A stretch of 64,000 bases of DNA from Chloroflexota bacterium. Its GTDB lineage: Bacteria; Chloroflexota; UBA11872. Location: NCBI GenBank assembly GCA_026707585.1, contig JAPOWQ010000040.1, positions 1-64,000 on the forward strand, in the 5' to 3' direction. Within the stretch, counting starts at the first letter, position 1, and every line of letters starts with the position of its first letter. Position numbers and translations under genes: made by a program. Under the pieces are notes generated by a model that ran no database searches, had not been told where the DNA came from, and was given only the letters and a program-made list of their open reading frames with translations. This document shows positions 40,696-64,000 of the stretch, in pieces.

Positions 40696-43333
40696 CGCCG
40701 TCTTCGTTGGCAGCGGCATCGGCCGCTTGAATCTCGGCTCGGAGCTTGACGTATTCAAACTCCGCCAGGCGCTCCTCCCGGCCGAAGAGTTGCTCCTCGA
40801 TGTAGGGGAGGACCGAATAGTCCCAGATCCGCTCCACCCAATCCTCGTTGAGGTCTCTGCGCATGAAGTGGCTGGGGCCGATGGCCAGGTGGCGGTCGCG
40901 GAGTTTGCCGTTCGCCGCGTCCAGCAGCCTGACGACCCAAAGGAGGTCGGGCTTGTGTGCTTCAAGCCAGCGGCTCAGGAGACCATCCACCGGCGTTCTA
41001 TCAGGAAAGAATGGAACAAAGTGGAAGCGGCGACGCAGGGCGGCGTCCACCAGGGCGATGGAGCGGTCGGCGGTGTTCATTGTGGCGATGAACCAGAGGT
41101 TGTCTGGGAGGGAGAACTTCTTGTCGGAATACTGGAGGAAAATCGCGTGGTCTGGACCCCTGTATTCGAGTAGAAAGTAGAGTTCGCCAAAGACGCGGGC
41201 GACGTTGCCGCGATTGATTTCATCGATGACGAGTACGTGCTTTGCGTCAGGATTGTCGCGTGCCCTTTTGGCGACACGCTTGAGTGGCCCTTCGCGGAGT
41301 TGGAAGCCCGGCTGGCCTTTCTGGTCGGAGGGTCGGAAGCCTTCGACGAAGTCTTCGTAGGCGTAGGACGGATGGAACTGCACAAGGTCGGTGGAGCCTT
41401 CGGCGCCGGCGAAGTGGCGGGCGAGCTGCAGGGCGACGAAGGTCTTGCCGGTGCCGGGCGGGCCGTAGAACACGACCTGCTGCTTGTGTTCGATCAGCCG
41501 GTTGATGTCGCGAAGGTGACCGGCGTCCCAAAAGAGCCGAGTGGCGAGGTCGTTGAGCGTCTCCGGCGCGACGGTGATCGAGAAGGTCTGCTCGGCGGCG
41601 CGGCCGTCTTCGTCTGTTGCTGTCCAGGTATACGTTGCGGAAGACTGCGCCGCCGTCGGAGCGCCGCTCAGTTCACGCGTCGCGTCGTCAAGCTCCAGAC
41701 CATCCGGCGGCTCCGGCGTCAACGCGTAGGTCGATGCTCCGCTGCCGCCGCTGGCCTCAGGCAGATACAGGGTCGGGATGATGGAGTTCTGGGAGAGTGC
41801 CTGGTTCTCGATCGGCTCTTCGAACGTCGGCGGCGGTGGAGGGGGCGGAGCATCGGCCTCTCGGAAGCGTCGAAGGGCGTCGTACTCGAACTCTGGGAAA
41901 TCTGGGTGATCCTCGGTCGTCCAGTTGACGACAGACCAGAGCATCGACTGGGCATCCAAACGATCCCGCAGCTCAATCTTGCGCTTTCCTGCCTCGACTA
42001 GAATCCGGTCAAGGAAGGACAGGACGTGCTCATACACGACACTGTCCGATGCAGATTTATCAGGATAGGGGTATCCTGTCAGGTCATACCCGCGTTCAAA
42101 TGTAGTAGTTCCATACGGTGGGTACGTACGTGGATCTATAGCCATTGCCAAGAATGATGCAAGGGTTATCCGCGTACCCTTGCCGCTGGGAGAGTCTGCA
42201 GGAACTTGCCTTAGAAAATCCCCGATTGCTACAGACGCATTCTCTTTGCTGACCCAGTTGCTTCTGTCTCCCCACAGTGCGAACAGCGCTTCACGTGCTT
42301 CCGTATTGTTCTCGGAACACCATATGCTAAACCTAGATTGAGTGATGTAATAGACTAAATTGTTGTCCTTATGCCCAAATGCTTGATTTAGAACTGTCAG
42401 CCAGTCATCCGATCCACGCTCGATAGCAAATCGCGCATGCTCGAGGCTGGTTGCAATGTCGAGCTTATAGTTACGCTCCCACTTGTCGAAGTGTTGAAGC
42501 TTGACAAAGCGACTTCCCCAGCCGATGAATCTGTCCCATGCCGAAACGTCTGGCGACCAGGTGAACCTGATGTCATCTGAGTAGAAGTCGAAACCGTCCA
42601 TATACTGCTCGGCATGTCCGGTCAGGCGTCGCCGGATTTGGAGTAAGTCGCGGTCAATGTCGCCCGTTGGCGCTTCAAGGAGAGCTCCAAAGGAATTACG
42701 CAGACTCATCTTCTGGTTTTTGGATATGGTTGGCTCGAAAGTATCAGGATATGTGAGGTGCAGTATCGACTCTGTTTGCAAGCCTGCCTTTGGGACTACA
42801 ACTGCTTTGATCTCATCCATGAAACTCCAAGGATCACGGAGGGCTATCGACTGTCGTTCGTCAGGCAGTCTCTTCCAGTGCAAAACGAACTCGGCGATGA
42901 ATTCAATGTGCGCTGGTTTGGAGGCTCCAAAGGCAGGTCCAGGAAATAGGACACCGCTATCCAATACCGAGTCCAGGTGGCTCGGAACGGATATGTCCGG
43001 GTCACCCCAACTAAGAACAAGGCTGAGACGTTCTCGCTTGTTCCTGCCACCTATCGCAGGAGGAGCAGCAATCAGATAGTGGACATAGAGGATTTCGGCG
43101 GCAAGTTGGATTGTCTCGCGCGGGGCTCCGAGAAGTAGCGCCTTGAGCTTGTCAAAGAACCCGCTACCGGGCGCACTGGTTGGCACAACGAACCGCTGGT
43201 GGAAGTCGGTGAGGTTCTGAAGTGACCAGATCGGATTGCCGGGGGTGAAGAGGGAATCGTCCGTGCGTAGGGCTACGTCAACCCAGCGTTGGGCGGCGTC
43301 GTATACCGGCTCGCAACCCGCCCGTCTAGCCAT
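40673..43333 (-). CDS. mcrB: McrB-type AAA+ GTPase with an inserted Ig-like (He_PIG) domain
   Basis: An 886-residue motor subunit. Residues 1 to about 490 are a large region starting WSLQNLTDFHQRF...GSGFFDKLKALLLGA, found in other McrB-like proteins and presumably for target recognition. A proline run (about 494-503) leads to a putative-Ig domain (about 506-590): IPTLYLPEASGGSGAS, GLELDDATRELSGAPTAAQ, TYTWTATDEDG, TFSITV. The GTPase follows: Walker A GPPGTGKTF (about 623), Walker B VLVIDEINRG (about 699) and the McrB loop TMNTADRS. Ig domains of this type normally occur in surface proteins. ATG 43333 is used; ATG 43363 adds ten residues. The 42000-43200 stretch is visibly richer in A and T than its surroundings. 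Confidence 0.85.
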   Translation of the reverse strand: MARRAGCEPVYDAAQRWVDVALRTDDSLFTPGNPIWSLQNLTDFHQRFVVPTSAPGSGFFDKLKALLLGAPRETIQLAAEILYVHYLIAAPPAIGGRNKRERLSLVLSWGDPDISVPSHLDSVLDSGVLFPGPAFGASKPAHIEFIAEFVLHWKRLPDERQSIALRDPWSFMDEIKAVVVPKAGLQTESILHLTYPDTFEPTISKNQKMSLRNSFGALLEAPTGDIDRDLLQIRRRLTGHAEQYMDGFDFYSDDIRFTWSPDVSAWDRFIGWGSRFVKLQHFDKWERNYKLDIATSLEHARFAIERGSDDWLTVLNQAFGHKDNNLVYYITQSRFSIWCSENNTEAREALFALWGDRSNWVSKENASVAIGDFLRQVPADSPSGKGTRITLASFLAMAIDPRTYPPYGTTTFERGYDLTGYPYPDKSASDSVVYEHVLSFLDRILVEAGKRKIELRDRLDAQSMLWSVVNWTTEDHPDFPEFEYDALRRFREADAPPPPPPPTFEEPIENQALSQNSIIPTLYLPEASGGSGASTYALTPEPPDGLELDDATRELSGAPTAAQSSATYTWTATDEDGRAAEQTFSITVAPETLNDLATRLFWDAGHLRDINRLIEHKQQVVFYGPPGTGKTFVALQLARHFAGAEGSTDLVQFHPSYAYEDFVEGFRPSDQKGQPGFQLREGPLKRVAKRARDNPDAKHVLVIDEINRGNVARVFGELYFLLEYRGPDHAIFLQYSDKKFSLPDNLWFIATMNTADRSIALVDAALRRRFHFVPFFPDRTPVDGLLSRWLEAHKPDLLWVVRLLDAANGKLRDRHLAIGPSHFMRRDLNEDWVERIWDYSVLPYIEEQLFGREERLAEFEYVKLRAEIQAADAAANEDGDAASPTS

Positions 43334-43341
43334 GGCGTCCG

Positions 43342-43358
43342 CCCGCAATGTTTGCGGG
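43342..43358. repeat. Small hairpin beside the mcrB start
   Basis: CCCGCAA (43342-43348), loop TGT, TTGCGGG (43352-43358) form a perfect 7-bp stem just upstream of the preferred mcrB start on the minus strand. It could affect mcrB translation, be an operator, or be coding if ATG 43363 is the true start. Confidence 0.35.
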
Positions 43359-43469
43359 GGCATGATACGTCGGACGTCGGGGCGGGTGGGTTCGAGTGTG
43401 GGGCGATGTGCGAGGTGGAATGGGGCCACAAGGGTTGTCCCCACGCGATCGGCGCTCGGGGCGGTGGGG

Positions 43470-44195
43470 TTAGGGTTTTTGCCAGCGCATGAGGGTGAAT
43501 TCGGGGATGCGGTACCAGTCTTCGAAGCGGGGGTTGTGGCGGAGGGTGTCGTGGGGTGGGACGGGTTCGAGGAAGCGGCGGAGGATGAGGTTGGCGGCGA
43601 GGTAGGCCTGCATGTAGGCGCTGAGGGGGCGGTGCCAGTTGACGACTTGGTGGCCGCGCCAGTTGAGGGTGATGGGGCGCTCGTCGACGTATTGGTCGAC
43701 GGGGCGAAAGAGGCGGCGGCCGTCGGCGGCGCGTTCCCAGCCCGGTGAGGCTGTGATGAAGCCGAGGTTGGCGGCGACGAGGTTTCCGCCGGGCTTGAGG
43801 ACGCGGGCGGCTTCGGCAATGGCGGATCGAAAGTCGGGCACATCCACCCAGACGACGTAGCTGACGACGGTATCGACGGTGGACGAGGCGATGGGCAGCG
43901 CGGTGGCGGGGGACCTGACGATGGTAGCTTGGCCGGCGGAACGGTCCCGGGCGGCCTGGACCATTGGCCAGAAAAGGTCGAGCGCGATGGTGCGGGCGCC
44001 GCGTGCAGCGAGCATGCGGCTGAAGCGGCCCTCGCCGGCGCCAATGTCGAGGATGAGCTGTCCTTCTACGTTTCCGCAATCCTCCAACATGAGTTCGTCG
44101 AGGAGCATGGTGCGGCTGGGGTCGCCTTCGTCGATGAAGCGGATGTATTCGGCGGCGAAGGCCTGCCAGCCGCTAGGGTCGTCTTCGTCGGGCAT
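43470..44195 (-). CDS. Class I SAM-dependent methyltransferase
   Basis: A 241-residue methyltransferase. Motif I is QLILDIGAGEGRFSRMLAARG, followed by TIALDLFWPMVQAARD, ATALPIASSTVDTVVSYVVWVDVPDF and EAARVLKPGGNLVAANLGF, the pattern of UbiE-like small-molecule methyltransferases. The start is uncertain: ATG 44195 or ATG 44231 (12 residues longer). The substrate is unknown. It lies upstream of mcrB on the same strand, but 136 bases apart, so a link to restriction is not established. Confidence 0.75.
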   Translation of the reverse strand: MPDEDDPSGWQAFAAEYIRFIDEGDPSRTMLLDELMLEDCGNVEGQLILDIGAGEGRFSRMLAARGARTIALDLFWPMVQAARDRSAGQATIVRSPATALPIASSTVDTVVSYVVWVDVPDFRSAIAEAARVLKPGGNLVAANLGFITASPGWERAADGRRLFRPVDQYVDERPITLNWRGHQVVNWHRPLSAYMQAYLAANLILRRFLEPVPPHDTLRHNPRFEDWYRIPEFTLMRWQKP

Positions 44196-51022: not shown

Positions 51023-51262
51023 ATGGCCGGCGGCACGGCAACACCTGGACGGATAGCACGACGGAGGTTGTTGCGCGCCGCGTCTGTATCGACACTCGTC
51101 GTGGCTACGGGCGGCGCGCTGGGCGCGTGCCTGGGTGACCCGTCGCGGGATGAGGACGGGTACTACAAGTTCGCGCGCACACGCGCGCGGGGAGAGTACG
51201 AGTACGACCCGCAGGAGCGTGAGCGGCTGCGGCAGGAGTACAAACCAAGCGGCAGTACGTAG
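51023..51262 (+). CDS. Tiny Tat-signal lipoprotein 1
   Basis: A 79-residue exported protein. The signal is twin-arginine-like (RIARRRLLRAASVSTLVVATGG) with a lipobox ending at Cys (GALGAC, about residue 36). The mature part is only about 44 residues, charged and Tyr/Arg-rich (GYYKFARTRARGEYEYDPQERERLRQEY). I do not recognise a family. A GTG at 50993 is an alternative start. Two other proteins with the same build lie at 51429 and 53655. Confidence 0.6.
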   Translation: MAGGTATPGRIARRRLLRAASVSTLVVATGGALGACLGDPSRDEDGYYKFARTRARGEYEYDPQERERLRQEYKPSGST

Positions 51263-51428
51263 ACGCGGCCCAGGCCGGGCACGAGGAGCAGTGCCACGGC
51301 GGCCATCAGCATTGGAAGCCGCCGAGGCGTGCGCCAACGAATCGCTTGCCGGGGGCGCCGGCCGTTCCCGTTGTGCGGATATACTTCATGGTCATAGTTG
51401 AGGCTGCTTTCGCACTCGCGAGGTTCCC

Positions 51429-51635
51429 ATGGCGAACGATACGGATCGACGAGGTCAGACTGGACTTCGTGCCGGCACTCGAATTCAGCGGCGCCGGATG
51501 CTGGCAATTGGCGCCGCCGCGATAGCCGCGGCGGGCATTGCAGCCTGTGCCCCGGAGGACGAGGGCGCGGGAACCCGCGACAACCCATTCCCGTATAGCG
51601 AAGAGCGAACCGCTCGGCTGCGTACGCGCATGTAG
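51429..51635 (+). CDS. Tiny Tat-signal lipoprotein 2
   Basis: A 68-residue protein. The signal IQRRRMLAIGAAAIAAAGIAAC has a twin arginine and a lipobox Cys at about residue 40, leaving a mature peptide of under 30 residues with PEDEGAG, DNPFPYSEERTARLR. GAGGT lies before the ATG. No family recognised; the size and layout match its two neighbours. Confidence 0.55.
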   Translation: MANDTDRRGQTGLRAGTRIQRRRMLAIGAAAIAAAGIAACAPEDEGAGTRDNPFPYSEERTARLRTRM

Positions 51636-51727
51636 CCCCGGCGCGACCTCGGTCGCGTCATTGACGGCGACACGACGGCCCGTGCCTGTGCGAGTGCGCC
51701 TACTACCCGCCCTGGTTTCGAGGACAT

Positions 51728-51763
51728 GATCAAGGCCCGGCGCCGAAGCGCCGGGCCTTGATT
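51728..51763 (-). terminator. Strong hairpin with UUCG loop downstream of the solute-binding protein gene
   Basis: CAAGGCCCGGCGC (51731-51743) pairs with GCGCCGGGCCTTG (51748-51760), extended by two A-T pairs. Read on the minus strand, the loop is TTCG closed by C-G, the extra-stable UUCG tetraloop. It lies 36 bases past the stop of the leftward solute-binding protein gene. The T tract after the stem is weak. Confidence 0.7.
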
Positions 51764-51797
51764 CTGTCGGCGTCCCAGGTCCGGACGCTCGCCAGGA

Positions 51798-53309
51798 TTA
51801 GAGCGGCGGGAAGCCGAACTTCTGGCGACCCTCGTTGAGTTGGTCGCGCTGACTGGCCAGCGTGGTACGCACCAGGTTCTTGGCCTCGTCGATCACCTGA
51901 TCGACGGGCTTGTCGCCCAGGTAGGCGGCGTCGGGCGTCTTGCGCCACTCGTACATCTCCCACCAGGCGGGGAGCGCCATCATCAAGTGGCGGTTGACGT
52001 TGTCGACATCGGCGTAGTGCTTGAGCCACGTCATGCCCTCGGGCGGCGGCGCCTTGGCCTCGTCGGAGTCGAAGACGCCGCGGTGCATGGGCAGGTGGCC
52101 TCGGTCAATGGCAACGCGACCCTGATACGTCTCGCCGCCCAGGAAGAGGATGAGATCGACCGCTTCCTCGATGGTGCCGAAACGCTCGGCGCCGTTGGTC
52201 ACGAGGTGCGGCTGATCGTTCCACTCGTGGATTTCCTCGCCCAGCGATCCCAGCGGCATAGGACCGAGCGACCACTGGAAGCGGTCCTTGATGCGCGGCA
52301 CGTGATAGCCGGTGGTATAGACGACGGAACTCAACCAGGACCAGACCTTGCCGGCGGCGAAGGGGTTACCGAACTCACCCGCCAGTCGCTTGTTGTCGGC
52401 GAGTGGGAAGGAAACCTTCTCGTTGTGGATCAGGCCCACGGAGAAATTTAGACCGAAGTCGCCGCCGTCATCGAAGACGGCCAGCTCGGTCTCGTCCGCA
52501 TTGCGCATGGCCTTGGCGCCCGACATGAACGCCATGGGGCTCCAGTGGAACTCGTAGCCGTTGTGGGCCCAGGTGCCCCACTGGTCGGTGTCGGGATCCG
52601 TGACCTGCTTGCAGGACTCAAGGAACTCGTTCTCGTAGGTCCAGCCCTCGCTGGGAAACTGTACCCCGGCCGCCTCGCCCATGGTGGTGTTCATCACGAT
52701 GCCGCCGAGGGCGCCCTGGAACGGAATTCCAAACTGCGCGCCCTCGATCACGTTCGATGGATTCGATCCCTCGCCGTGGGCGTGGTCGTGATTGACGGTG
52801 TACAGGTCGGGAATGAAGTAGTAGTCCTCAGCGATGTAGTCGTCGCGCTTGGCCAGCGTGTCATTGATCTCGGTGAAGCCGCCATCGTTGACGAAGGCAC
52901 CAAGCATGCCGCCGTCCAGCATGGCTACCTCAGCCTGGGTGCCGGCGGCCATCTGCAGCGGGAACACGCTGGTGGCGTAGTCGGCAGGCTGGGGGATGAA
53001 CTTGACGAAGATATTCGGCCGCAAGGCCGCGTATTGCTTGAGGCCCCACTGCATGGCCGCGCCGCGCGGACCGGACGTGTGGTCGCCTACGTAGCTGAGC
53101 GTGACGCTCTCGGGCTGTGGCGCCGCCGTGGCAGCCGGAGCGGGCGCCTCGGTCATGGCCGGGGCGGCGGTGGTCGCCGGCGCCTCCGACACAGGTTCAG
53201 GCTCGGGTTCCGACTCGCCGCACGCCGCCAGGATGGCCATGCCGCTGACGCCGATGGCCCCGACGCCCGCGGCGCGCAGGATGGTGCGCCTCGATGGGCG
53301 ATTGCTCAT
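51798..53309 (-). CDS. Extracellular solute-binding lipoprotein (sugar ABC-transporter type)
   Basis: A 503-residue binding protein. The signal SRRTILRAAGVGAIGVSGMAILAAC is Tat-like with a lipobox, followed by an acidic and Ala/Pro/Thr linker of about 50 residues. The mature fold begins VTLSYVGDHTSGPRGAAMQWGLKQYAALRPNI and resembles family-1 sugar-binding proteins (GIPFQGALGGIVMNTTM, EFGNPFAAGKVWSW). No permease or ATPase gene is adjacent, so its transporter is elsewhere or lost. The pseudogene at 62591 is a close relative. ATG 53309 starts the signal. Confidence 0.85.
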   Translation of the reverse strand: MSNRPSRRTILRAAGVGAIGVSGMAILAACGESEPEPEPVSEAPATTAAPAMTEAPAPAATAAPQPESVTLSYVGDHTSGPRGAAMQWGLKQYAALRPNIFVKFIPQPADYATSVFPLQMAAGTQAEVAMLDGGMLGAFVNDGGFTEINDTLAKRDDYIAEDYYFIPDLYTVNHDHAHGEGSNPSNVIEGAQFGIPFQGALGGIVMNTTMGEAAGVQFPSEGWTYENEFLESCKQVTDPDTDQWGTWAHNGYEFHWSPMAFMSGAKAMRNADETELAVFDDGGDFGLNFSVGLIHNEKVSFPLADNKRLAGEFGNPFAAGKVWSWLSSVVYTTGYHVPRIKDRFQWSLGPMPLGSLGEEIHEWNDQPHLVTNGAERFGTIEEAVDLILFLGGETYQGRVAIDRGHLPMHRGVFDSDEAKAPPPEGMTWLKHYADVDNVNRHLMMALPAWWEMYEWRKTPDAAYLGDKPVDQVIDEAKNLVRTTLASQRDQLNEGRQKFGFPPL

Positions 53310-53654
53310 GCGTTCCCTCCCTGAAGGCAAGGATGCTCAAATCGCGACAGCTCGTTGCGGTCGCTTCCGGACGACGCTCCGGCACCAGCCGAAACTCATG
53401 CCGCCGTTGGACGCTTGCCTCAGTGCACCGAACTTGGCGTGCGTAGCTTGTTCTATTTGGAACTACACGTCAAGTGGCCTATCTTGAACGGCATGATTGC
53501 TCGCTGTTTAGTTTTAACTCAGATCTCCTGGCGGGATCCGAGTGACCATCGTAGCGACTGTTCCGTGCGCGGCGTGGCGGGTCGCCTGGTGTGGGGACCG
53601 GCGTCCGGGCCCAACGGCGAGCGACGATGCGTCGGCCAACGAAGGGCATGAGCA
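53310..53654. other. Divergent intergenic region
   Basis: About 345 bases separate the leftward solute-binding protein gene from the rightward small lipoprotein gene. I see no gene in it. The best promoter-like sequence for the rightward gene is TTGAAC (53484-53489), 17-base spacer, TTTAGT (53507-53512), four of six matches to each consensus. No strong inverted repeat is present. Confidence 0.4.
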
Positions 53655-53933
53655 ATGGGCGCTCGCGGGGAACTGCCCGGGACGGATGGGCAGCCGGTTT
53701 CAACGGTGGGTAAGCGGCCGGCGACGATACAGGACGGCGGTCCGGCCAGGCGCGGGGTTGGTCGACGACACGTGTTGCTCATGGCGCCGGGCGCGCTGCT
53801 CTCCGCCGTCCTGACGTCCTGCGCCGACAAGCCTCCACCGACCGAGGTAACGCCGTTTGCGTTTCCGGCGGTGGGCGCGGGTCAGAAGGACACCGCGCAG
53901 TTTGGCGCGCGCAGCGGTCCCACGGTTCCCTGA
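53655..53933 (+). CDS. Tiny Tat-signal lipoprotein 3
   Basis: A 92-residue protein with a longer basic N-terminus, then RRGVGRRHVLLMAPGALLSAVLTSC as a twin-arginine-like signal with lipobox Cys at about residue 56. The mature peptide is about 36 residues, Pro/Thr/Gly-rich (KPPPTEVTPFAFPAVGAGQ). GAAGGGC lies about seven bases before ATG 53655. No family recognised. Third of the series with 51023 and 51429. Confidence 0.55.
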   Translation: MGARGELPGTDGQPVSTVGKRPATIQDGGPARRGVGRRHVLLMAPGALLSAVLTSCADKPPPTEVTPFAFPAVGAGQKDTAQFGARSGPTVP

Positions 53934-62452: not shown

Positions 62453-62590
62453 AGGAACCGGCGGGAGGCAACGGACAGCGGTCGTGCGCGCAGCGACGAC
62501 TGATCGCCCGACGCGCACGGACGCGGCATCGATTCCTCGACTGGCCATCGGGTCGACTGGATGTGGCGTGCGTAGCAGCGGAGGCGCAGA

Positions 62591-64000
62591 ATGAACGGCG
62601 TAAGTAGACGTGCTCTTGTTCGGATGATGGGCACCGGCGCCCTGGGATCCGCTGGCGCCGCGCTCTGGGCAGCCTGCGGTGAGACCCAGGTCGTGACCAA
62701 AGAGGTCCCGGTCGAGAGGGTCGTCGTCAAGTAAGTCCCGGTAGAGAAGATCGTTACTCAGCAGGTTGAAAGAATCGTGACCCAGGAGGTCGTGAACGTC
62801 GTGCGGCAGGAAGTTCCCGTCGAGAAGGTGGTTGAGGTCAAGCAGGTTGTCGAGGTCCCGGTCGAAAAGGTTGTCGAAAAGGTCGTCACCAAGGAAGTAG
62901 AGACGGTCGTCGAGAAAGTCGTCGAGGTCGAGGCGCAGCTTCCGCCCGTGACCGTGGTATTTCGTCCACGACCACACGTCGGGTCCGCGCGGCGCCGCGA
63001 TGGGATGGGGCCTGGATCGATTCGCGCAGACGGTGCCCCACATCAATATCAAGTTCGTGCCTCAGCCTCACACCTACGAGGAGTCCTTCAGCATTCAGAT
63101 GGTCGCGGGCACGGCGGGTGAACTGGCGCTCTTGTCCGGCTGGTTCAAGTCACGCTTCCAGGCGTCAGGCGGCTTCATGCAGATCGATGACGTCGTGCGC
63201 AAGTTCGACACGTTCAATCCGCACGACTACTACTTCTACCCGGATACGAACGATCTGACGTTTACCGATACCCTGCCCATTGGGCATCTGGATGGCCTTC
63301 GGGGCCCCATGTTCGGTCTGCCTTATCAGGGCAATCTGAACACCCAGATCATTCAACCTTGACATCATGGAGCAGTCTGGAATCGAGTGGCCGACGACGG
63401 GTCGGTGGGGTATCCAGACAGAGTTCCTGGAGGCACTCCAGAAGGCGACCGACCCCGAAGCGCAGCAATGGGGGCTTCTCGCGAACGGGAGCTGGTACGG
63501 GATGTGGTACTCGTGGGGATGGGCGCTGGCCGACGATCCCAATCTGCGTTACCGATCGGCGGACGGCCTGCGGACGACGATGTGGGACAGCGACGGTGAC
63601 GCAGGGATCCGCCTTGTCAATGACCTGATCCATACACATGGTGCGGCGCCGCCGGTTTCCGAGACGCGGGAGCTGGCGGGTGAGTTTGGCGATCCGTTCT
63701 CCGCCGGACGCGTGATGGTCAGGTCGGCGGGATCGGTTGGCACCTTTGCGACGCGGATCAAGGACCGGTTTCGGTGGTCGCGAATGCCAACGGTCGAAGG
63801 CCCGCGCGGGCCTGCGCCATACGCCATGACCATGCAGCCGCACTTGGTGACGAATTCCGCCGAGACGCGCGGCAACGTGGAAGCGTGTGTTGAGGTCTGC
63901 TTGTTCTTCGCCGGCCGGGAAGTCCAGGGACGGGTCGGTATCGATCGGGGATCGGTGCCGATCAGGAAGGACGTCCTGGCATCGCCGGAATACGCGGCGG
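62591..64000 (+). pseudogene. Solute-binding lipoprotein pseudogene, cut by window end
   Basis: From ATG 62591 a Tat-like signal (SRRALVRMMGTGALGSAGAALWAAC) leads to a Val/Glu/Lys repeat. An in-frame TAA (62732-62734) interrupts it. One extra T near 62963 shifts the frame; in the next frame FVHDHTSGPRGAAMGWGLDRFAQ continues the family. A second extra base near 63354 shifts it again, and NLDIMEQSGIEWPTTG resumes and runs in frame to the window end, with ELAGEFGDPFSAGRV and GRVGIDRGSVP. It aligns along its length with the intact protein at 51798-53309. Three lesions indicate a dead gene unless they are sequencing errors. Confidence 0.8.
62700..62938 (+). repeat. Low-complexity Val-Glu/Lys coding repeat
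   Basis: Degenerate units of the type VPVEKVV, VVEKVV and VTKEV recur about ten times after the lipobox of the decayed solute-binding protein. It would form a long charged linker or strand-rich stalk. The intact relative at 51798-53309 has an Ala/Pro/Thr linker at the same place instead. Confidence 0.7.

Follow-up and report, generated by a model that had tools for sequence, protein, structure and literature searches.

Three short genes in a 64,000-nucleotide stretch of a Chloroflexota bacterium genome (assembly GCA_026707585.1, contig JAPOWQ010000040.1, positions 1 to 64,000; hereafter the window) are genuine genes for micro-lipoproteins, with export and lipid anchoring predicted. They lie at 51023, 51429 and 53655, around a solute-binding protein (SBP) gene on the opposite strand, as an initial annotation of this DNA had described, and are termed A, B and C here. 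Comparison with related genomes indicates strong purifying selection on their mature parts and places all three genes in a large family, which the initial annotation had not seen. By gene position, this family is frequently linked to one family of sugar-binding SBPs, most of which appear to be without permease genes nearby. The three genes and their predicted mature parts are as follows.

51023 to 51262, plus strand: micro-lipoprotein A (ATG at 51023, TAG ending at 51262), with RRR, the lipobox LGAC and a predicted signal of 35 amino acids (aa)
51128 to 51259, plus strand: predicted mature part of A, 44 aa, with an E/R-rich helix at the C-terminus
51429 to 51635, plus strand: micro-lipoprotein B (ATG at 51429, TAG ending at 51635), with QRRRML, the lipobox IAAC and a predicted signal of 39 aa
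51546 to 51632, plus strand: predicted mature part of B, 29 aa
53655 to 53933, plus strand: micro-lipoprotein C (ATG at 53655, start codon uncertain; TGA ending at 53933), with GRRHVLL and the lipobox LTSC
53820 to 53930, plus strand: predicted mature part of C, 37 aa, with the motif TPFAFP

A and B converge on the minus-strand SBP gene at 51798-53309, from which C diverges. Each of the three proteins combines a basic or twin-arginine n-region with a hydrophobic stretch and a lipobox cysteine, and the predicted assignment to twin-arginine translocation (Tat) and lipidation rests on reading of the sequence together with a rule-based scan. The Pfam Tat model PF10518 stayed below its cut-off for B (12.4 bits versus 22.7) and did not match A or C at E ≤ 1. 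The start codon of C is uncertain because its N-terminus varies freely among orthologues. Short lipoprotein genes of this design exceed chance expectation, since a scan for a lipobox followed by a short mature part in 20 randomly placed 20-kb pieces from 19 contigs of the own genome (400 kb) returned 19 matches, 12 of them with the family motif described below, versus only 2 when the same stretches were reversed without complementing.

Conservation was analyzed in the 13 genomes of the genus, where the syntenic loci were fetched around the SBP after the search. A and B were identified in nine of the 12 relatives and C in eight, and the gene order around the SBP was the same wherever the contig was whole. 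Including the own copy, this yielded 10 sequences each for A and B and nine for C, among which G003 and G011 are not independent, as their A and B proteins are identical. The mean pairwise identity of the mature parts was 0.934 for A (45 pairs), 0.964 for B (45 pairs) and 0.959 for C (36 pairs), and orthologous SBPs share 91-95% identity with that of the window; the peptides are therefore about as conserved as the binding protein itself. Mean nonsynonymous divergence (dN) was 0.038, 0.025 and 0.020 and mean synonymous divergence (dS) 0.72, 0.449 and 0.855 for A, B and C, respectively, which corresponds to dN/dS of about 0.02-0.06 as calculated from the mean values. Variable sites in the mature parts (46 of 132 nt in A, 20 of 87 in B, 32 of 111 in C) were distributed over codon positions 1/2/3 as 10/2/34, 2/1/17 and 1/3/28, with the third position predominating. 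Downstream of the stop codons, 56, 57 and 59 of 60 nt were variable, figures that are overstated because the comparison was ungapped.

The signals, in turn, diverged: over their last 22 residues, mean identity was 0.60 for A, 0.71 for B and 0.47 for C. As the mature parts are conserved while the signal ends have drifted, function would lie in the exported mature peptide. Gram-positive bacteria possess pheromones that are cut from lipoprotein signal peptides, and by this precedent the signal peptide could be the actual product and the mature part a by-product. Signal ends at 0.47-0.71 identity next to mature parts at 0.93-0.96 effectively rule this out, and we consider it extremely improbable.

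The initial annotation had also considered that the genes might be leftovers of binding-protein genes. Their signals are indeed of SBP-like design and broken SBP copies exist (window 62570-64000 and C65:270-273 kb), yet neither this origin nor one as chance open reading frames (ORFs) agrees with the dN/dS values given above. Loss of frame and stop codons in close strains, which had been named as signs against the genes, did not occur in the 10, 10 and 9 orthologues (no internal stop in 29 sequences). No meaningful match of a mature part to the SBP was obtained (best E 0.27 over 4 residues), and a likeness between AGTRDNPFP of B and SBP residues 310-318 (E 2.8) was taken as chance. With selection on the mature parts, intact frames and no resemblance to the SBP, leftovers and chance ORFs were rejected and are assigned hardly any probability.

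The triad SBP (at least 91% identity) was identified in eight of the 12 relatives. In a ninth, G009, it is represented by two fragments at contig ends adjoining B and C (17 residues at 94% and residues 1-88 at 68% identity). A and B occur in the same nine relatives and C in eight, the contig of G011 stopping inside the SBP gene. For G001, G002 and G012, which are without the triad SBP, no A, B or C orthologue was present among the matches listed. As all genes lie within 3 kb, this co-occurrence may equal the gain or loss of one locus. In G009, a second SBP of 32-35% identity adjoins gene A (C45, L102 1361-2687).

A search of the own genome with protein A retrieved one clear paralogue (C5:58358, E 4.5e-6) and several weak ones (C5:58631, E 0.0034; C22:42057, 0.024; C65:278798, 0.14). 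The family list, built by scanning SBP flanks and then the own genome with profiles, comprises 26 genes at 10 loci, which occur singly, in pairs, as a seven-gene cluster (C65:276459-281691) and as five genes in tandem (C28:110127-111490). Predicted mature lengths range from 19 to 61 aa. The usual mature plan consists of the cysteine, a short acidic or Gly-rich linker and an aromatic-x-aromatic motif in variants such as GGYKFP, EDYSFP, TPFAFP, GKFKLR and DFEYK; one subset carries an additional C-terminal E/R-rich helix (SEEERAKLQE, PQERERLRQE). An aromatic-x-[FYL] motif is present within the first 32 mature residues of 25 of the 26 genes and is followed by P, K, R or T in 23 (exceptions: A, B and the C39 gene), counts that describe rather than test the motif, as it was drawn from the same 26 sequences. 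The initial observation that the mature parts do not resemble each other holds for direct comparison, in which A, B and C are scarcely alike; A and C are nevertheless tied to the wider family through intermediates, and B belongs to its own subgroup, G(T/S)RD(N/D)PFP, a looser branch.

When all scanned genes were clustered and plainly spurious ORF clusters excluded, the mature part was mostly more conserved than the signal. The 19-20-aa group, for example, comprises 11 distinct copies with identities of 0.87 in the mature part and 0.63 in the signal (dN 0.062, dS 1.04). Contrary to this trend, mature part and signal are equally conserved (both 0.58) in a 17-member PGGYxFP cluster and nearly so (0.79 vs. 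0.81) in a three-copy group. The two largest clusters, 25 DFEYK (dN 0.354) and the 17 PGGYxFP genes (dN 0.637), mix paralogues. In profile comparisons of mature parts, whose E-values refer to single comparisons of groups picked by eye, the short PGGYxFP group joined the A-type group (93%, E 3.6e-7, 19 columns). The DFEYK group was joined solely via the C-terminal helix (55%, 18 columns), which renders its family membership uncertain. No Pfam model reached its cut-off for A, B, C and five paralogues, nor did any NCBIfam model for 10 family members, and no title or abstract start describing the family was found in the literature. A phage origin is unsupported, as viral contigs contained no confirmed relative of the A-type alignment; a PHROG search with seven members returned nothing better than E 0.04. 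Other small lipoproteins were noted: a pair at G000:C8:6833-7367 with 22-residue mature parts and the motif FDFKPRG, 4.6 kb from an SBP; a group with RQDYxxxIAPERCGG outside the aromatic-x-aromatic family (L008 1420-1635 in G000 and L264 1462-1656 in G012); and a lipoprotein with a mature part of 52 residues and a doubled "PGDFY," far from any listed SBP (L261 1381-1689 in G012).

Linkage to SBPs was found repeatedly. In the own genome, 18 of the 26 family genes, at seven of the 10 loci, have one of the 27 SBPs at a distance of no more than 2 kb, and these 2-kb surroundings amount to 3.3% of the genome; the resulting binomial p of about 5e-9 is overly optimistic, as the scan of SBP flanks had itself contributed some of the listed genes. 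In the less biased sample of random stretches, the 12 motif-positive matches form four loci, two within 2 kb of an SBP and the others at 4.6 kb and 13.5 kb. Among loci retrieved solely through similarity to the SBP, with flanks of up to 5 kb, 40 of 79 carry a family member in their flanks and 37 of 79 within 2 kb; several of the 79 represent the same orthologous locus, sampled from more than one genome. A profile search of the entire single-contig genome G012 yielded 10 small-lipoprotein loci as read by eye, including two of other types (L261, L264). At five of these, an SBP is no more than about 500 bp away, and the tenth locus, near 2,414,600, is more than 100 kb from any listed one.

The binding protein at the center of the triad was assigned to the family-1 sugar-type lipoproteins by sequence and fold.

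51798 to 53309, minus strand: SBP, family-1 sugar-type solute-binding lipoprotein, 503 aa; SBP_bac_1 (PF01547) at 36.6 bits (cut-off 26)

Its AlphaFold2 (AF2) model (pLDDT 80.8) matches the oligosaccharide-binding structures 6rjy and 5f7v (TM 0.80 and 0.79 by target), and 5f7v was also the one match of a PDB sequence search (E 0.0092). No permease gene was found beside it, and the locus is thus not a complete ATP-binding cassette (ABC) sugar importer; the nearest BPD_transp_1 match is 85 kb away on the contig. Of the 27 paralogous sugar SBPs in the own genome, 22 have no BPD_transp_1 within 5 kb and five do, counts that contig ends limit for some SBPs. In none of these five does the 2-kb neighborhood include a listed micro-lipoprotein. 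A further SBP homologue at 62570-64000 of the window, continuing to C36:64179, is split between different frames, with the signal part near 62570 and further parts at 62961-63350 and 63355-64179, representing either a decayed copy or assembly frameshifts. Two SBP matches at G000:C65:270326-273038 (L029, L032, L036) are likewise in pieces, one with an internal TAG.

Because the mature parts are conserved, the signals have diverged, the linkage to SBPs is repeated and, in the genomes tested, family and close SBP type occur in this genus only, we tentatively propose that the micro-lipoproteins serve orphan sugar-binding lipoproteins as lipid-anchored accessory subunits, a reading we prefer although it is slightly less likely than not. 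The initial suggestion of accessory peptides of transporters gains from the repeated linkage to one SBP family. In this scenario, A, B and C would pass through Tat (some relatives perhaps through Sec), be lipidated and remain anchored on the outside of the membrane. Placed only a few residues past the lipid, the aromatic-x-aromatic motif would dock on a shared partner, in the simplest case the adjoining lipid-anchored SBP or a membrane complex serving it, while the variable tail, helical in A, might confer specificity. The peptide could thereby position, stabilize or gate the binding protein, in a manner comparable to LptM at the lipopolysaccharide translocon. It is also conceivable, albeit unlikely, that about two dozen mostly permease-less sugar SBPs form a modular nutrient-capture surface in this genus, part of them paired with 19-61-residue micro-proteins that dock by the aromatic-x-aromatic motif as adaptors to shared transporters.

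Several observations weigh against accessory subunits. The origin of part of the gene list in SBP flanks inflates the linkage, and for 19 of the 27 SBPs the list contains no micro-lipoprotein closer than 2 kb. The C5 pair, which is widespread in the genus (12 distinct copies), is separated from an SBP by 13.5 kb in the own genome and by 300 kb in G012. Orientation relative to the SBP varies among family genes: the DYSFP gene lies closely downstream of an SBP on the same strand, and the 19-aa gene lies upstream of one. Finally, AF2 predicts little fold for mature A, which is modeled mostly as coil with a helix at mature residues 28-37 (pLDDT 70.5, pTM 0.31). The SBPs without such neighbors, the lack of a consistently operonic orientation and the position of the C5 pair, the C39 gene and several G012 loci away from SBPs all suit general envelope or surface micro-lipoproteins of this genus with structural, signaling or host-facing function, which would have no physical tie to SBPs and share with them gene islands for uptake and breakdown of particular compounds. 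This explanation, which would accommodate the surface peptides also suggested initially, is a serious though doubtful alternative, as different groups are recurrently linked to one SBP family at many loci, a pattern that gene islands would not easily produce. Lipopeptides directed at other cells, either antimicrobial or immune-active, might equally be small, lipidated (as predicted here), multigenic and diversified. However, 12 mature peptides showed net charges of -3 to +1 and hydropathies of -1.85 to -0.32 (C being weakly hydrophilic), and orthologues are nearly invariant, unlike arms-race peptides, so that this role is improbable.

Two conserved blocks were identified in the intergenic DNA of the triad.

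51420 to 51423, GAGG five bases before the ATG of B, and 51380 to 51385, TATACT: block upstream of B, conserved in 8 aligned loci
53446 to 53478, no strand: block between the SBP and C, conserved with few differences in 8 aligned loci

In the former, nine columns (GATATACTT) are invariant across the 8 aligned loci. The latter is likely to represent a candidate promoter or operator region of the SBP and contains, upstream of the SBP, an inverted repeat, GTTC-N6-GAAC (53448-53463), that has no second match in the window even when 3 mismatches are allowed. A shared DNA operator was rejected, as the repeat matched in 11 of 289 loci, each of which is a copy of the triad locus itself. A promoter and terminator scan of the region returned one of each, no more than in shuffled sequences. 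Elsewhere in the window, G+C content drops to 0.581 at 42001-44000, compared with about 0.63-0.71 in the remainder.

Both the family and the close SBP type are confined to the genus in the genomes tested. Within the genus, profile A5 matched 12 of 13 genomes at E ≤ 1e-8, and it matched none of the other 28 genomes of the class; the family was absent from G001 (2.1 Mb, 76% complete). In a draw from the phylum, 12 of 400 genomes matched at E ≤ 1e-10, all of them within the genus (0 of 387 other genomes), a sample in which weak relatives could be missed because only 16 candidates per genome were scored. For the sister genus and the next family, the best matches that were opened proved to be Tat signals belonging to long proteins (L207-L211, L213, L225-L227). 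The close SBP type (E ≤ 1e-20) was found in none of five genomes tested outside the genus, with two matches in G001 and 13 in G012. A contig search with the SBP alignment identified named relatives as Chloroflexi/Chloroflexota metagenome-assembled genomes, several of which, going by their sample names, presumably come from marine sponges; the same search with protein A alone returned no relative.

If an accessory role is correct, an uncultured lineage would possess a conserved gene family tied to sugar capture with mature products down to 19 residues, and binding-protein systems could own tiny lipid-anchored partners. This would make the working of binding proteins without neighboring permeases testable. 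Should the adaptor scenario apply, the peptides would constitute an undescribed class of transport subunits, among the smallest lipoprotein subunits known. The case also illustrates how easily short lipoprotein genes are overlooked.

Compared with known systems, the SBP of the triad belongs to the PF01547 family-1 binding proteins, from which its setting differs in that 22 of the 27 paralogues have no BPD_transp_1 nearby; the micro-lipoproteins themselves are not SBPs. AcrZ, KdpF and similar small proteins are regulators of transporters and consist of transmembrane helices. The micro-lipoproteins resemble them as tiny, putatively membrane-bound proteins with a possible tie to transport, but are predicted lipoproteins. 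The closest parallel is LptM (formerly YifL), a short lipoprotein in stable complex with LptDE and thereby a subunit of a large envelope complex (PMC10567701). Membership in the LptM family was rejected, as PF13627 was not among the Pfam matches of A, B and C (E ≤ 1) or of five paralogues (E ≤ 0.05), and the best NF047847 score of 10 proteins was 16.0 (cut-off 27.7); the micro-lipoproteins also differ in carrying Tat-like signals and another motif. LptM (PF13627/NF047847) shares with them a small lipoprotein design in which the region right after the cysteine is conserved and the tail is poorly conserved in many lineages. Our best guess, by analogy, is that the micro-lipoproteins would work in an LptM-like manner.

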